The notes beneath the pieces were generated by a model. It was given only the letters and a program-made list of their open reading frames with translations. It was not told where the DNA came from and ran no database searches. Shown here one piece after another: positions 3,386 to 18,657 of a stretch of 46,309 nucleotides of DNA. Position 1 is the stretch's first letter. The number at the start of each line of letters is the position of its first letter. The stretch comes from a virus, in the IMG/VR virus record IMGVR_UViG_3300044796_000167, positions 1-46,309 of that record; one strand, given 5' to 3'. The position numbers and the translations under genes are program-made.

Positions 3386-5098
3386 TTATCGTCCTCCGAA
3401 ACCGTTCACGCTGAGTCCTACGGCTTTAAATCTATTGTTAATCAAACTCCAGAGCATTTCAAGCGCATCCGGCCCATCGTCGTGATCGACGTGCGGAAAG
3501 GCTTGAATCTGGCGCATGAAGGGGACGATCAGAGCGCGGTTGAACAAAATCCAGCCGTAGGTAATCTTGGGCTCAAGAGTATGAATGCGCTTCTCTTTAT
3601 TGTCAACGGCCTCGAAGTCGTAGAAAGGAACCTTGACTCTCTTTCCGAGCTTCTCCTCCCATCGCTTCTGCTCATCGAGGAAGTTGGGCATCAGCAGGTC
3701 GCGGTACAGGTTCGTCTCCACCGCGAACTTCTGGTACTGAAACTGCTCATTCAGCTCAAACACCTTCTTGAGCCACACGGATGAGCCTGCTTGCTTCATC
3801 CAAGCATCGTGAACGAAGAGGCGTTGCTTCGAGTCTTTCACGCCACTGATGATCGCGGCGAAGTCGCCACCCTTACCTGTCTTCGCTTTGGTCTGTCCGG
3901 TAGCTGGATCAAGAGCGCCGAACATGGAGAGCCACTTACCATTCTGATCCTTGAGTCGATCCCAGGGTATCAGCGTGTTCGTCTCTTCGATCAAGAAACC
4001 CTTCTCAGTCTCACGATAGTAATGCAACCGCTCGAAGAGAGCGTCATCTCCACCGATAGGCTCGTTCTGCTTCTCCTTGAAAAAGGCACGACGACCTGTC
4101 TCGATCAGCTCCTTCATCAGGTAGAGGTAAGACTCTTTCTCAGGCCACAATACGCGCACACCCTTCAGCATCTCTACTTCGTTGGTGTCGTAGAACGCTT
4201 GTGCCTTCTTCTGTCGGTCATCATCATCAAGGTTGATGTAGATGCGTTTCCACTTGTCCCACAGGTCTTGACGTTCCGACCAGGAGATGACGGCCTTGTA
4301 GATCTTGCCGTTGTAAGCTGGGTTGTCGATCAGTTCCTTAAGTAAGCTTTCGGGGTGAAGGATCGTACCGATGACTTTGATATTGGTATTGCCGTCTCCA
4401 AGCTTTGAGACGACCTGATACATCCAGTCACGTTTCTTTGTGCGGAGTGCTTCGTTAAGCACTTCCTCAGAATGTTCACCGTCATCGACGATGATCTTGC
4501 TGGGTCTGTTTTCACCGAACCGAATGCCTCGTACTTCCGTAGACGAGCCATAGCTCTGGAATAAGCACTGATGGTCACCAGCAATGATGATGTAGCTCGT
4601 TTCAGCAGGCTTACGACTTGGGAAGCGTAGCTTGTAGTCACGAGAGAGATCACTGTTGGTAAGGACTTCATCTCGTATGTCGCGAAGTTTTTGATTCGCT
4701 TGGTCCTGGTTCTCCGAGAAGATGACGATAAACTTCTCAAGTCCATAGCAGACGTCATGGATCGGTTCGATAAGAGTTTCAAGCGTTGATTTCGCATAAC
4801 CGCGAGGTGCTGCACGTACACGTCGAATCGCTCTCTCCATGAACGAAGACGAATCAAACAGATCACGATGAAGGTCGTTGAAAGCGAATTTGCAGTAATG
4901 AGGAAAGTAGGCCGCCGCATAAAGCTGTAGATCCGTGGCGCAACGAAATTTGAAAAGTAACTTAGCCGCTTCTTGCTCGTCATTTTTTCTCAGTTCCTCG
5001 AACAAGTTCAGCAATGCGCTCGAATCCATCGAACCAATTTGCTTTGCCAACAGCTTCACCGAGTCCAAGCTTCTCCCAGAGATCATCGATGACTGCAC
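3386..5098 (-). CDS. terL: Terminase large subunit
   Basis: 570 aa from GTG. The ATPase domain has a Walker A variant RAAPRGYAKST (about residues 95-105) and Walker B IIVDD (202-206) followed by E208. The C-terminal RNase H-like nuclease has FGALDPATG (Asp about 397), VETN (Glu about 461) and GPDALEM (Asp about 544). It pumps DNA into the prohead and cuts it. The GTG at 5098 has AGGAG 6 nt upstream and gives a 119-bp overlap with the small subunit gene; an ATG at 5029 would shorten this to 50 bp but lacks a ribosome binding site. Confidence 0.95.
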   Translation of the reverse strand: MQSSMISGRSLDSVKLLAKQIGSMDSSALLNLFEELRKNDEQEAAKLLFKFRCATDLQLYAAAYFPHYCKFAFNDLHRDLFDSSSFMERAIRRVRAAPRGYAKSTLETLIEPIHDVCYGLEKFIVIFSENQDQANQKLRDIRDEVLTNSDLSRDYKLRFPSRKPAETSYIIIAGDHQCLFQSYGSSTEVRGIRFGENRPSKIIVDDGEHSEEVLNEALRTKKRDWMYQVVSKLGDGNTNIKVIGTILHPESLLKELIDNPAYNGKIYKAVISWSERQDLWDKWKRIYINLDDDDRQKKAQAFYDTNEVEMLKGVRVLWPEKESYLYLMKELIETGRRAFFKEKQNEPIGGDDALFERLHYYRETEKGFLIEETNTLIPWDRLKDQNGKWLSMFGALDPATGQTKAKTGKGGDFAAIISGVKDSKQRLFVHDAWMKQAGSSVWLKKVFELNEQFQYQKFAVETNLYRDLLMPNFLDEQKRWEEKLGKRVKVPFYDFEAVDNKEKRIHTLEPKITYGWILFNRALIVPFMRQIQAFPHVDHDDGPDALEMLWSLINNRFKAVGLSVNGFGGR

Positions 5099-5537
5099 GC
5101 TTCTCTCCTGCGCTGATCGTCGTCAGCTCGCCCTTTGAAATACTCAACGCATGCTTCTTGGCACCAAGGCCCTTGAAGCTCGCTCTCTTCTTCACGCTCA
5201 CGCCGGTAAAGTCAGAAGCGTTCGCAGTCGCCATACCCACGAGGATCTGAAGCGCCTTCGTGCGATCAAACGCGACTAACTGGCGCATTTCCTCCCTATG
5301 GGCGTCGAGAGCTGAGGAGATGCAAGGCTTTGCAAGGAGCTTAGGGGCTCCATCACGCGCTGTGTCGTAACTCGCCTTGGGATAAGCCTTCATGTACGCA
5401 CGAGTGCCGTTTCCCCCATTGTCGATGTACTCTTCAACGAAGATCTCTTCTCTCCAACCTAGTGCGGGGATTTCGGCTACAGGGACTCCGGGTCCTGACC
5501 CGCTAGCGCCCGCCTGGGACGCTTTGCGCTTTGCCAT
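4980..5537 (-). CDS. terS: Terminase small subunit
   Basis: 185 aa, Terminase_2-like. After a Gly/Ser/Pro-rich head, residues 31-75 hold the typical HTH region (EEYIDNGGNGTRAYMKAYP, then TARDGAPKLLAKPCI). It recognises the packaging site and recruits the large subunit, which follows with overlap. The acidic and basic C-terminal part is probably for oligomerisation and TerL contact. Confidence 0.9.
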   Translation of the reverse strand: MAKRKASQAGASGSGPGVPVAEIPALGWREEIFVEEYIDNGGNGTRAYMKAYPKASYDTARDGAPKLLAKPCISSALDAHREEMRQLVAFDRTKALQILVGMATANASDFTGVSVKKRASFKGLGAKKHALSISKGELTTISAGEKRAVIDDLWEKLGLGEAVGKANWFDGFERIAELVRGTEKK

Positions 5538-5581
5538 AGGCTACAAGGGTAGCAGGACCCGGAGAATGCAACTAGAACAGA

Positions 5582-5878
5582 CTATTGACGCTGTACGAGG
5601 GTATTGCTGATCGAGGACCGGGGGCGCACCGAGGAGATGAGGTTCTGCACGATGCCCTTCATGTTCATGAGGGTCTGCTTGTGCGCGAGACGAGAGTCCG
5701 CGAGCTGTCGATCCAGCTCCGCGACGCGAACCTTGAGACGCTCGACGGAGGTGCAGGCGGTCTGATGGTCGGCGGTCTTCAGTTCGAGCGCGGCCAGGAG
5801 GACATCACGATCCTCCTTCATGAGGCGCTGATCTTCTTTAAGGGTCTTGAGCTTCTGAGCGACGTTCTTACGGGCCAT
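5582..5878 (-). CDS. Coiled-coil small protein of unknown function
   Basis: 98 aa with a good ribosome binding site (AAAGGAG, 6 nt before ATG). Residues 5-75 are strongly helical with heptad-like leucine spacing (KLKTLKEDQRLM, then VERLKVRVAELDRQLADSR), so a coiled coil is likely. It lies just upstream of the small terminase. I recognise no family; a packaging accessory or scaffold-like role is possible but unsupported. Confidence 0.7.
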   Translation of the reverse strand: MARKNVAQKLKTLKEDQRLMKEDRDVLLAALELKTADHQTACTSVERLKVRVAELDRQLADSRLAHKQTLMNMKGIVQNLISSVRPRSSISNTLVQRQ

Positions 5879-14426: not shown

Positions 14427-14819
14427 TTACGTTCCTTCTTTCTGGCCGCGAGCGGCCTGGTCTGTGAGCAGTTTGGCAACGCGTAACCGAATTTGCTCGA
14501 TCTTCGGGGCGTCTACTTCGGAAAGGGCTTTCTGGATGGACTCAGCGATGAGCGGCCTGGTCGTCTTATCTTCGACCTTCATGACCATGAGACAGAGGTC
14601 CCGCTGCATCGACTCTGTGATCTGATCGATACGCTCGTTACACTCCTTGCGGAGAGCTGCGGACAAACGCCGCTCGCGCTCCAGCTCGCTCTGCAATCGG
14701 ACCGACTTGAAAAAATCCCAGCCGGAGATAGCGATCACGGTCACCAGGAACGCAAGCCCTGCGAAAAAGATCCCCAAGAAGATCTGGGCAAAACCTGAGA
14801 AGAAGCTTGTTCCAGTCAT
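14427..14819 (-). CDS. Membrane-anchored coiled-coil protein
   Basis: 130 aa. One hydrophobic segment at residues 6-33 (FFSGFAQIFLGIFFAGLAFL and on), then a helical region rich in Glu/Arg/Leu (RLQSELERERRLSAALRKE). This predicts a single N-terminal membrane anchor with a cytoplasmic or periplasmic coiled coil. Overlaps the Sak4-like gene by 4 bp. An i-spanin would look similar, but the place inside the recombination operon is unusual for lysis. Function unknown. Confidence 0.7.
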   Translation of the reverse strand: MTGTSFFSGFAQIFLGIFFAGLAFLVTVIAISGWDFFKSVRLQSELERERRLSAALRKECNERIDQITESMQRDLCLMVMKVEDKTTRPLIAESIQKALSEVDAPKIEQIRLRVAKLLTDQAARGQKEGT

Positions 14820-15739
14820 GCGGCCCCCTTCGTGATGGTCTTGAGCCCGTTGCGGACGCGGACGAGTTCCGGCACGACGTTTCCGATCTTAGCCAGATGC
14901 GCGTTGATCTTGTCCTTCGTGGCCTGGTCGGCAACCTTGCCCAGCAGCTCGTCGATGTCCTTCTTGACGTTCTCAGGCGTCTCAAGCTCGCCCTTTCCAG
15001 CGGCGGTCATGAACTCGGCGAAGAAGCCCTTTTTGAAGTCCATCTCGTGAGGCAAGCCGTAACGATTCTTTGCTTGGTACGAAGGCCGCTTTTCGGTGAA
15101 GGCGACACGTTCGCCATCGCCGAGTGCGCGAGTCTTCGAGCCCTCTTCTTCTTTCAAGAAGGTCTTGAAGCGCACGAACAAGAGCGCATCGACCCACTCG
15201 CGCCAGAGAGATGAAACCATCTCATGGCACTTGATCTCGAAGGCGTCATAGTCGCTCATCGCCTCGGGGTCTTTCACGGTGCGAACCGTGTAGTGAGCGG
15301 TGATGATGACGTTCATCCCGCGCTTTTCGCGAAGCACGGAAAGCCGCTCGATCAGCTCGCGGTGCATCTTTTCGCTCTCCCGGTAGCCAGCGCCATATCC
15401 GCCGTTCGCTGTGATGATGGAGCGACCCGCTTTGTCGAGGCTCAGGATCTTCGCGTGCGCGGTCTTCTCGATCCAGTCAGCGGAGTCGAGCACGACCGTT
15501 TTGTACGAGTGCGGCCCCGTCGTGAGTTCATCGACGGAGGCGAGAATATCATCCCAGGTGGCGACGTTCGGCATTGCCTTCGCGCCGGGGATATTGTCGA
15601 TTCCGCCCTCGGGCGTAATAAAGATCGGAACGGGAGCTTCCGACCCGAAAGTGCTTTTACCGACACCTTCGATTCCATAGATCATGACCCGAACCGGCTT
15701 GTTCGGATTCGCGGTCTGTACTGCTGCAAGTCGTGACAT
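14816..15739 (-). CDS. Sak4-type RecA-like ATPase (AAA_24)
   Basis: 307 aa. Walker A GIEGVGKST (22-30) and Walker B TVVLDSADW (81-89), then the conserved NVIITAHYTVR strand and E/R-rich middle typical of phage Sak4/AAA_24 proteins. Family members act as single-strand annealing or recombination ATPases and depend on SSB. Good ribosome binding site (AAGGAG, 6 nt upstream). It is the first gene of the leftward replication operon, opposite the YqaJ exonuclease. Confidence 0.85.
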   Translation of the reverse strand: MSRLAAVQTANPNKPVRVMIYGIEGVGKSTFGSEAPVPIFITPEGGIDNIPGAKAMPNVATWDDILASVDELTTGPHSYKTVVLDSADWIEKTAHAKILSLDKAGRSIITANGGYGAGYRESEKMHRELIERLSVLREKRGMNVIITAHYTVRTVKDPEAMSDYDAFEIKCHEMVSSLWREWVDALLFVRFKTFLKEEEGSKTRALGDGERVAFTEKRPSYQAKNRYGLPHEMDFKKGFFAEFMTAAGKGELETPENVKKDIDELLGKVADQATKDKINAHLAKIGNVVPELVRVRNGLKTITKGAA

Positions 15740-15904: not shown

Positions 15905-16972
15905 ATGGACAGAATCGAATGGCTTCAGTGGCGACAAAAGGGTATCGGGTCGAGCGATGCACCGATCATTATGGGCGTGAGCCCGTACAGCACGCCTTTC
16001 AAGCTGTGGGAAGACAAAACCGCCGCCGAGGTGAAGGAAGACACCTCGAACCAGTACATCAAGGACAAAGGCAACCGTATCGAGCCCAAGGTGCGCGAGT
16101 TCTATTCGCTCTCGCGCGGATTCATGAGCTTCGAGGTCGCACTGATCGAGATGCAGGGTTTCGCGCACATCAGGGCTTCGCTCGATGGGATGCACACGCA
16201 CATCCTTACTCAGAAAGTCGAGTCGCAGGATGGTCAGATTGAAGTGCCGGCCATCGAAGATATCGAGCTGATCGAGATCAAGTTCATCGGCAAAGAGCCC
16301 TGGCTTAAGTCGATGGATACATCTCTCGTCGTTCGCGACCGCGTGCCCATTCACTATTGGCCGCAGATCCAGCATCAGCTCATGGTCACGGGCGCGAAGG
16401 TCTGTCACCTGCTCGCCTATTGGGACAAAGAAGGCGACGAGCAGATGCGCGATGCGAATCTCTCAGTCGTGTCGGTCTACCCCGATCACGAGTACATCGC
16501 GCAGCTTATCGAGGAGGAGCAAAAGTTCTGGAAGTTTGTCACGGACAAAGCTCCGCCCCCGTTCTGTGACCGCGATTACAAGACGCTCAAGTTCAAGGGT
16601 GCAACCGGACTCGCGAACAAGTACAAGCGCCTCAAGCTCAAGATGCAGAAGGCAGAGGCAGACCTCGATGCGATCAAGAGCGTGATCGTCGAGGCGGCTA
16701 AGGCAGAGAAGCACCCGCGACTCACGCTCGCTGGCCTCAAGGTATTCGAGGTCGAGAAGGATGGCAGCGTGGACTATAAGACGCTCGCAGAGGCGTGCGC
16801 TTGGAACTCAAAGCTATTCTGGTCGAACCTCCCGCGCGAGATCGCTGACAAGATGGTTGCGGACGGAACCCCTAAGAAGACTTCGGACATCGAGCTGTAC
16901 CGAAAAAAGGGCTCTAAATCATGGACGATCAAAATCGAAAAGGAGAAGAAAAATGAAGCAGAAGTACGTTGA
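15905..16972 (+). CDS. YqaJ-like viral recombinase / exonuclease
   Basis: 355 aa, PD-(D/E)xK exonuclease of the YqaJ/lambda Exo type. Visible: RQKGIGSSDAPIIMG (10-24), the catalytic set E60 (GNRIEP), D94 (ASLDG), E124-x-K126 (LIEIKF) and the Q-rich helix YWPQIQHQL (151-159). It resects double-stranded ends to give 3' single strands for annealing. C-terminal 150 residues include a coiled coil. Ribosome binding site AAGGAG. It pairs functionally with the Sak4-like ATPase across the divergent promoter. Confidence 0.9.
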   Translation: MDRIEWLQWRQKGIGSSDAPIIMGVSPYSTPFKLWEDKTAAEVKEDTSNQYIKDKGNRIEPKVREFYSLSRGFMSFEVALIEMQGFAHIRASLDGMHTHILTQKVESQDGQIEVPAIEDIELIEIKFIGKEPWLKSMDTSLVVRDRVPIHYWPQIQHQLMVTGAKVCHLLAYWDKEGDEQMRDANLSVVSVYPDHEYIAQLIEEEQKFWKFVTDKAPPPFCDRDYKTLKFKGATGLANKYKRLKLKMQKAEADLDAIKSVIVEAAKAEKHPRLTLAGLKVFEVEKDGSVDYKTLAEACAWNSKLFWSNLPREIADKMVADGTPKKTSDIELYRKKGSKSWTIKIEKEKKNEAEVR

Positions 16973-17834
16973 AAAACGGTTCACGAATCGCGTGCTGGGT
17001 TTGATCGGCACGGCAAACACAATCATCGCGGCCTACGAGGCGGACGGGTACTCGCTGACGCTTCGCCAGCTCTATTACCAGTTCGTGAGTCGCGACCTGA
17101 TCCAGAACAACATGAAGGAGTACAAAAAGCTCGGCAGCGCCATCAACGACGCCCGGCTTGCGGGCCTCATCGACTGGAATGCCATCGAGGATCGCACGCG
17201 GAACCTCCAGGGTAATCAGCACTGGGAAAATCCCGGCGAGATCATCGACGCGTCGGCGGCAGGTTACGCGCTCGACAAGTGGGAGGATCAGGACTACCGC
17301 GTCGAGGTCTGGGTCGAAAAGGACGCCTTGCTCGGGGTCATGGAACGCGTTTGCAGACGCCTGGACGTCGATTACTTCTCGTGCAGGGGTTACACCTCTC
17401 AGAGCGAGATGTGGCGCGCTGGCAAGCGTCTGAGCAGCTACGTGAAGGCCGGTCAGAAGCCGATCATCATCCACCTGGGCGACCACGATCCAAGCGGCAA
17501 GGATATGACCCGCGACGTGCAGGATCGTCTCGATATGTTCTGCGGCGAGGGAGAGGTGCAAATTCATCGCATCGCACTCAACCTAGATCAGGTCAAGAAG
17601 TTCAACCCGCCACCTAACCCAGCCAAACTGACGGACACGCGCGCGAAGGCGTACATCCGTGAGTTCGGAACCAAGAGCTGGGAGCTGGACGCTCTCGACC
17701 CGAAAACGCTTGACGCTCTCGTTACGAAGAACGTCAAGGAGTTCCTGGACCAGAAGCGGTACAACACCATCAAGGAGAAAGAGACGAAGCAGAAGGCTCG
17801 ACTCCAGGAAGTGGCGGACGACTTCCGTGAGTAA
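16953..17834 (+). CDS. Spo11 / Topo VI subunit A-like protein (Mini-A-like)
   Basis: 293 aa. Start ATG at 16953 with AAGGAG 8 nt upstream, overlapping the YqaJ gene by 20 bp. Residues 36-42 (LTLRQLYY) resemble the catalytic-tyrosine helix of the Topo VI-A/Spo11 winged-helix domain (candidate Tyr41 or Tyr42). Residues 118-125 VEVWVEKDA (E122, K123) and 175-181 LGDHDPSG (D177, D179) match the TOPRIM acidic motifs, with CRGYTSQSE between them like the G-Y/F-P segment. The fold order is that of type IIB cleaving subunits, and no B-subunit ATPase is encoded. Predicted role: DNA cleavage or nicking in recombination or replication. The homology call is from motif reading. Confidence 0.7.
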   Translation: MKQKYVEKRFTNRVLGLIGTANTIIAAYEADGYSLTLRQLYYQFVSRDLIQNNMKEYKKLGSAINDARLAGLIDWNAIEDRTRNLQGNQHWENPGEIIDASAAGYALDKWEDQDYRVEVWVEKDALLGVMERVCRRLDVDYFSCRGYTSQSEMWRAGKRLSSYVKAGQKPIIIHLGDHDPSGKDMTRDVQDRLDMFCGEGEVQIHRIALNLDQVKKFNPPPNPAKLTDTRAKAYIREFGTKSWELDALDPKTLDALVTKNVKEFLDQKRYNTIKEKETKQKARLQEVADDFRE

Positions 17835-18123: not shown

Positions 18124-18657
18124 ATGGCAAAGAACAATAAGGCAGTGAAGTTTGAAGGTCAGGACGACGAGCAGGGCATCAAGGACGTGCGCGCTACGAC
18201 CACGGAGCTAACGCCCGAGCAGGTCGAGGAACAAGCCCAGCGCGAGAAAGATCTCGCGCAACAGCGTGCCGAGCACCAGGCGAAGGAGGACGAGCTCAAC
18301 GGAACGACTCCGGGTGGCCCTGACAGCGAAGATGAAGACGGCGACGAAGGAGAGGGCGACGGTGAAGACGAGCCCGTGCTGACCGGCGACGCCGCCGACG
18401 AGGGAGTCAAGACTGCGCTTCCCGAGGAAAAGATGACCCGCGCGCAGAAGGTCGATCACGCGATGGAGCAGCTTCACACGATCCGAAAGCACTTCGGCAA
18501 TCGCAAGGAAGACGACATCCTGAAGGAAGGCGTTCACAGCGTCGATCTGGGGATCGTGATGGAGCTTTCCGACCGTCACGCCAGGGGCAAGGAGCTGCAC
18601 CTCTCGGACGGCCACATCGAGCGTCTGGGCATCCTGCACAAGAAGCTGATTAAGTAG
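18124..18657 (+). CDS. Acidic hypothetical protein
   Basis: 177 aa with CAGGAGA before ATG. The N-terminal half is a charged helix rich in Glu/Gln; residues 66-85 are almost pure Asp/Glu/Gly; the C-terminal 75 residues form a more ordered helical part (AQKVDHAMEQLHTIRKHFG, IERLGILHKKLIK). Strong acidity suggests a DNA-mimic or a protein interacting with basic partners, but this is speculation. Last gene of the operon, followed by a terminator. Confidence 0.7.
   Translation: MAKNNKAVKFEGQDDEQGIKDVRATTTELTPEQVEEQAQREKDLAQQRAEHQAKEDELNGTTPGGPDSEDEDGDEGEGDGEDEPVLTGDAADEGVKTALPEEKMTRAQKVDHAMEQLHTIRKHFGNRKEDDILKEGVHSVDLGIVMELSDRHARGKELHLSDGHIERLGILHKKLIK

Follow-up and report, generated by a model that had tools for sequence, protein, structure and literature searches.

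The window analysed here is the whole 46,309-nucleotide stretch (positions 1–46,309) of the viral record IMGVR_UViG_3300044796_000167. It encodes a terminase, portal, tail sheath, primase, helicases and a Holliday-junction resolvase, and is therefore a contractile-tailed phage or prophage. The yqaJ gene (15905–16972, plus strand) encodes a recombination exonuclease of the YqaJ/lambda-exonuclease family (PF09588, E 1.2e-22; phrog_434, E 1.8e-47; TIGR03033, E 4.7e-30), and divergent from it is the gene for a Sak4-like single-stranded DNA annealing ATPase (14816–15739, minus strand; phrog_124, E 1.1e-42; AAA_24, E 1.6e-41). Overlapping yqaJ by 20 bp is an ORF for a protein of 293 amino acids (16953–17834, plus strand), which PHROG, AF2, Foldseek, hhalign and homology to a protein of Pseudomonas phage NP1 identify as a Mini-A, a stand-alone protein resembling Topo VI-A and Spo11. 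The ORF starts with the ATG at 16953, and a Shine-Dalgarno sequence, AAGGAG, can be read directly in the 3’ end of yqaJ (16940–16945, plus strand), 7 bases ahead of the ATG. Re-reading the sequence confirmed the ORF, start, motifs and overlap as first described, and the Pfam and PHROG matches agree with the original prediction that the overlapped gene is a YqaJ gene and that an annealase lies on the opposite strand.

The ORF translation contains the motifs LTLRQLYY (residues 35–42), VEKDA (121–125) and GDHDPSG (176–182). In the AF2 model (mean pLDDT 87.5), an N-terminal, three-helix winged-helix-like region precedes the strands and helices of a TOPRIM domain, so that the expected pair of 5Y-CAP and TOPRIM is present and in order. 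All features of the ORF are on the plus strand. The predicted winged-helix (5Y-CAP-like) region spans approximately residues 12–80 (16986–17192), with helices at residues 12–30, 37–46 and 54–69. The TOPRIM domain, placed by the beta/alpha order of the model and by hhalign to the TOPRIM of Topo VI-A, spans approximately residues 115–217 (17295–17603), and the model ends in a long C-terminal helix (residues 267–292; 17751–17828).

The profile of PHROG 6247, annotated as "DNA topoisomerase", covers residues 1–292 with an E of 2.8e-116; because the match is this strong and nearly full length, it is not due to chance. The NP1 protein (gp49, YP_009285860.1) falls in the same PHROG and is 44% identical to the window protein over residues 1–291, and an archaeal plasmid protein annotated as "Topo Mini-A" is 27% identical (E 4e-20). 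NP1 provides the literature’s example of a Mini-A (PMC7614492). According to reviews, Mini-A proteins are truncated homologues of Top6A, found in viruses and mobile elements, whose function is unknown (PMC7614492, PMC8185306, PMC8084294). Since it is homologous to both of these proteins, the window protein is, judged by sequence, a Mini-A, a member of the already known family PHROG 6247. The family reportedly goes back to Takahashi et al., 2020, in NAR Genom Bioinform (lqz021). Like its NP1 relative, the window protein is about 300 amino acids long, is homologous over its full length, combines a winged helix with a TOPRIM, lacks a B subunit, and belongs to a family carried by phages, prophages and plasmids. 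No departure from the family was found in its sequence, and it differs only in its immediate neighbour – YqaJ here, a ligase and Sak4 in NP1. The identification rests on PHROGs, profile comparison and fold, while scans of the protein with Pfam, NCBIfam and PADLOC did not recognise it. The searches found 154 relatives in IMG/VR and 128 in genomes of GTDB, where the hosts come from many phyla, as well as 76 among phage records and 44 among plasmid records. No experiments on any Mini-A were found in the literature searched.

Two comparisons connect the family to Topo VI-A. Searches of PDB sequences with the window protein or its alignment gave no match, and in the viral fold library the single significant match was a short unnamed fragment (E 2.5e-5). 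The best PDB match of the model in Foldseek was Topo VI-A of M. mazei, with a probability of 0.99; given its modest E (3.3e-3) and a low global TM-score (0.34), the relative placement of the domains in the model is uncertain. In hhalign, a profile of 167 Mini-A proteins matched a profile of 26 archaeal Topo VI-A proteins with an E of 5.5e-5 and a score of 42, compared to at most 19.2 for 30 column-shuffled controls and 13.0 for a reversed one. The alignment spans the TOPRIM, for which it is strong, and a distinctive segment after it (IALNxDQVxxYxPPxNPxK in one profile, IGITPxDIxxYxLPTHPLK in the other). The tyrosine segment is aligned in the global alignment only, with TLRQLYY on TKREAYY and ELDAL on EQQAL. 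Mini-A thus resembles archaeal Topo VI-A in the order of 5Y-CAP and TOPRIM, in this later segment and in its active-site residues, but is shorter, has another C terminus, has no GHKL partner, and is only ca. 15–18% identical to it. The resemblance to Spo11 in superfamily and catalytic layout would follow by way of Topo VI-A; Spo11 itself is eukaryotic and works with a B-like partner.

The active site of M. mazei Top6A includes R102, Y106, E202, D254, D256 and E342 (PMC13040014), and all six map to the window protein, as R38, Y42, E122, D177, D179 and E244, respectively. Arg38 (17064–17066), the equivalent of a clasp residue, Glu122 (17316–17318), the metal-site glutamate of the TOPRIM, and both aspartates of the TOPRIM DxD, Asp177-His-Asp179 (17481–17489), are found in 175 of 175 Mini-A homologues. 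Tyr42 (17076–17078) is found in 174, the lone exception being an N-truncated plasmid ORF. Glu244 (17682–17684), in the sequence SWELDAL, corresponds to the glutamate of AEQQAL in Top6A, a residue of the clasp and acidic tetrad; the correspondence was checked via phmmer offsets, and the glutamate is kept in 169 of the 175 homologues, with Gln in five plasmid forms. Tyr41/Tyr42, Glu122 and Asp177/Asp179 had been put forward as the catalytic positions to check for conservation in homologues. Of these five residues four are conserved, while Tyr41 is replaced by Phe, Trp, Met or Ala in divergent members. Tyr42 is therefore the likely nucleophile, as judged from conservation and mapping. It is very probable that the window protein both is a Mini-A and uses the tyrosine/TOPRIM chemistry of cleavage.

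The original prediction of a B-less, Mini-A-type relative of Topo VI-A and Spo11 is thus upheld by the sequence, by profile comparison, by the predicted structure and by the mapping of the active site, and its statement that no GHKL ATPase is encoded was also correct for the window, in which both domains searched for were missing. Among 50 viral contigs with a Mini-A, the window included, none had a GHKL ATPase domain (HATPase_c, PF02518) and none had a Topo VI-B transducer domain (PF09239), while positive controls were detected; as some contigs may be fragments, this absence is strong rather than absolute. Topoisomerase VI, an A2B2 enzyme with a GHKL ATPase as B subunit, accordingly does not describe these loci. 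Topoisomerase VIII is likewise a type IIB relative found on mobile elements, but it has B-type as well as A-type sequence, usually fused in one protein, and the 293-amino-acid ORF has no B part.

A phage without a B subunit that nevertheless conserves the active site fully could carry the catalytic half of an enzyme that borrows an ATPase subunit from the host, such as GyrB or ParE, for strand passage. The hosts span many phyla, however, which makes a specific host partner unlikely; bacterial hosts mostly lack Topo VI-B, and the B subunits of type IIA enzymes contact an A architecture unlike that of Mini-A. Borrowing of this kind is very doubtful.

As predicted from its conserved residues, Mini-A would work as a homodimeric, metal-dependent tyrosine transesterase. 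Tyr42 in the winged helix of one subunit would attack the DNA backbone, with metal held by Glu122, Asp177 and Asp179 of the partner’s TOPRIM, giving hybrid active sites, and the products would be staggered, reversible breaks with 5’-phosphotyrosyl linkages. Arg38 and Glu244 may form a clasp that limits cleavage. With no ATPase subunit, ATP-driven strand passage would not be expected. One Topoisomerase VIII relaxes DNA without ATP and another only cleaves it (PMC7614492), and SPO11 is able to relax and reseal nicked DNA (PMC11922745); given these precedents, such chemistry would be workable without ATP-driven strand passage. The most likely activity would be the making of transient breaks in phage DNA during replication and recombination – swivel relaxation, untangling, or junction processing. 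A reversible function in topology or at junctions has about an even chance of being the actual role. Some other role is unlikely, deliberate breaks that initiate recombination are more so, and action on host or competitor DNA is the least likely of the three.

The neighbourhood of the gene was the basis of a more specific proposal: that a Spo11-like breaker, an exonuclease and an annealase form a break-resect-anneal system in phages. Under it, Mini-A would make permanent Spo11-like double-strand breaks, YqaJ would resect the ends, and Sak4 would anneal the single strands. The window itself fits, with the overlap of Mini-A and yqaJ and the divergent sak4 gene, and so do some other phages. In NP1, Mini-A, Sak4 and a Cas4 exonuclease are in one gene run, and in one further contig (L005) genes for a PD-(D/E)XK exonuclease and Sak4 are immediately downstream of Mini-A. 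About 8–10 of the 49 other contigs have such exonuclease or Sak4 genes within ca. 5 kb of Mini-A.

As a conserved system, however, the proposal is not borne out by the survey. YqaJ was encoded in 3 of the 50 Mini-A viral contigs (2 of 49 besides the window), Sak4 (phrog_124) in 11, and exonucleases of the PD-(D/E)XK/Cas4 type in 13. A search of viral contigs for relatives of the window YqaJ found one distant relative, and a search for relatives of its Sak4 found none. As these were too sparse for a reciprocal analysis of co-occurrence, the comparison used relatives of the window’s terminase and primase, representing packaging and replication genes. In this control set of 28 relatives lacking Mini-A, which is small and includes short contigs, YqaJ was found in 3 and PD-(D/E)XK exonucleases in 4, so that YqaJ is not enriched with Mini-A (3/50 vs. 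3/28, Fisher p 0.35). Neighbours are diverse – among same-strand neighbours at ca. 107 Mini-A loci on each side, no family was found at more than 6, and other contexts include thymidylate synthase, DNA polymerase, endolysin/terminase and lysogeny genes.

A sister phage makes the same point for yqaJ itself. In the related contig L262, the gene directly after yqaJ, which overlaps it to a similar extent, encodes a homologue of the acidic protein found in the window at 18124–18657 (plus strand; C-terminal homology to the L262 ORF, E 5e-9), and there is no Mini-A between them. At this position behind yqaJ, Mini-A has therefore been either acquired or lost. The acidic protein, encoded after yqaJ or after yqaJ and Mini-A, has a conserved C-terminal segment, HLSDG, in both phages (18124–18657 in the window, 2441–2944 in L262).

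The expected chemistry also speaks against the proposal. Mini-A keeps the clasp by which Top6 restrains cleavage. Exonucleases of the lambda type prefer a free 5’-phosphate, unlike the 5’-phosphotyrosyl end that Mini-A would leave, so that direct hand-off to such an exonuclease would need removal of the 5’-linked protein; among those window genes that were scanned, none was recognised as a releasing enzyme resembling Mre11 or Tdp2. Of the properties of a Spo11-type initiator, the Topo VI-A-like catalytic core is present, and conserved coupling to resection and annealing is absent. Since few other phages have Mini-A next to an exonuclease of recombination, a "meiosis-like" phage system is unsupported, and permanent breaks passed to YqaJ and Sak4 are improbable. 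A narrower version, in which Mini-A is a dedicated initiator in some phages and its protein-linked breaks lead to recombination via nearby Cas4 or YqaJ exonucleases and Sak4, is slightly less probable again; if true, phages would have a counterpart to the way meiosis begins. A role in recombination is possible given the co-location of these genes in the window and in NP1. Mini-A is an accessory of the DNA-metabolism regions of phages, not a fixed partner in a break-resect-anneal set.

Its presence on plasmids and prophages also brings to mind a nuclease used as a weapon on the DNA of the host or of competitors, comparable to the Topo VI-A-related nucleases of Wadjet/MksBEFG, as related TOPRIM nucleases act in plasmid defence (PMC13040014). 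Mini-A retains the catalytic tyrosine, however, and no SMC family is among the recurrent neighbour families listed. The window protein had no PADLOC match, and a JetD match was marginal and limited to one divergent form (E 0.0047). A role as a weapon is thus quite unlikely. A relationship to the JetD/Wadjet nucleases (DUF2399/DUF3322) was rejected; of 74 relatives, 2 matched DUF2399, both marginally.

The preferred reading remains that of an enzyme making transient, reversible breaks in phage DNA. The Mini-A family occurs widely among phages and prophages across many bacterial phyla; its members keep the full Topo VI-A active site yet have no motor subunit. If their effect on DNA were known – cutting, relaxation or breakage – this would indicate how a Spo11-like protein can work alone, and bear on the origin of Spo11. 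The window copy adds an event of accessory gain or loss beside yqaJ, and clean predictions for individual residues.

Several relatives have features of their own. Five divergent Mini-A-like proteins from actinobacterial plasmids (L205, L206, L209, L265 and L267), annotated as hypothetical and ca. 24–29% identical, have Gln at the position of Glu244, matching the E342Q change in Top6A. Topo VI with Top6A E342Q cleaves DNA more readily. In these plasmid forms Asp246 is replaced by Glu, and the acid may simply have shifted by two residues. A Saccharopolyspora plasmid (L210) has a Mini-A-like ORF (4962–5675) whose annotated form omits the N-terminal segment with the tyrosine; it also lacks WELDAL, and is possibly a decayed copy. 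The GenBank Mini-A gene models of phages RDJL Phi 1 (L200, 8276–8902) and SPN19 (L201, 8130–8888) begin downstream of the homologous N terminus, so that the annotated proteins are missing the catalytic tyrosine and a large part of the winged helix. The starts are probably misannotated, though the RDJL Phi 1 match is in two pieces and a frameshift is also possible there. A small circular element of Paenibacillus durus (L270; NZ_CP009289.1, 15,151 bp) encodes a Mini-A 54.6% identical to the window protein, along with a Zot-domain protein, and appears to be filamentous-phage-like.
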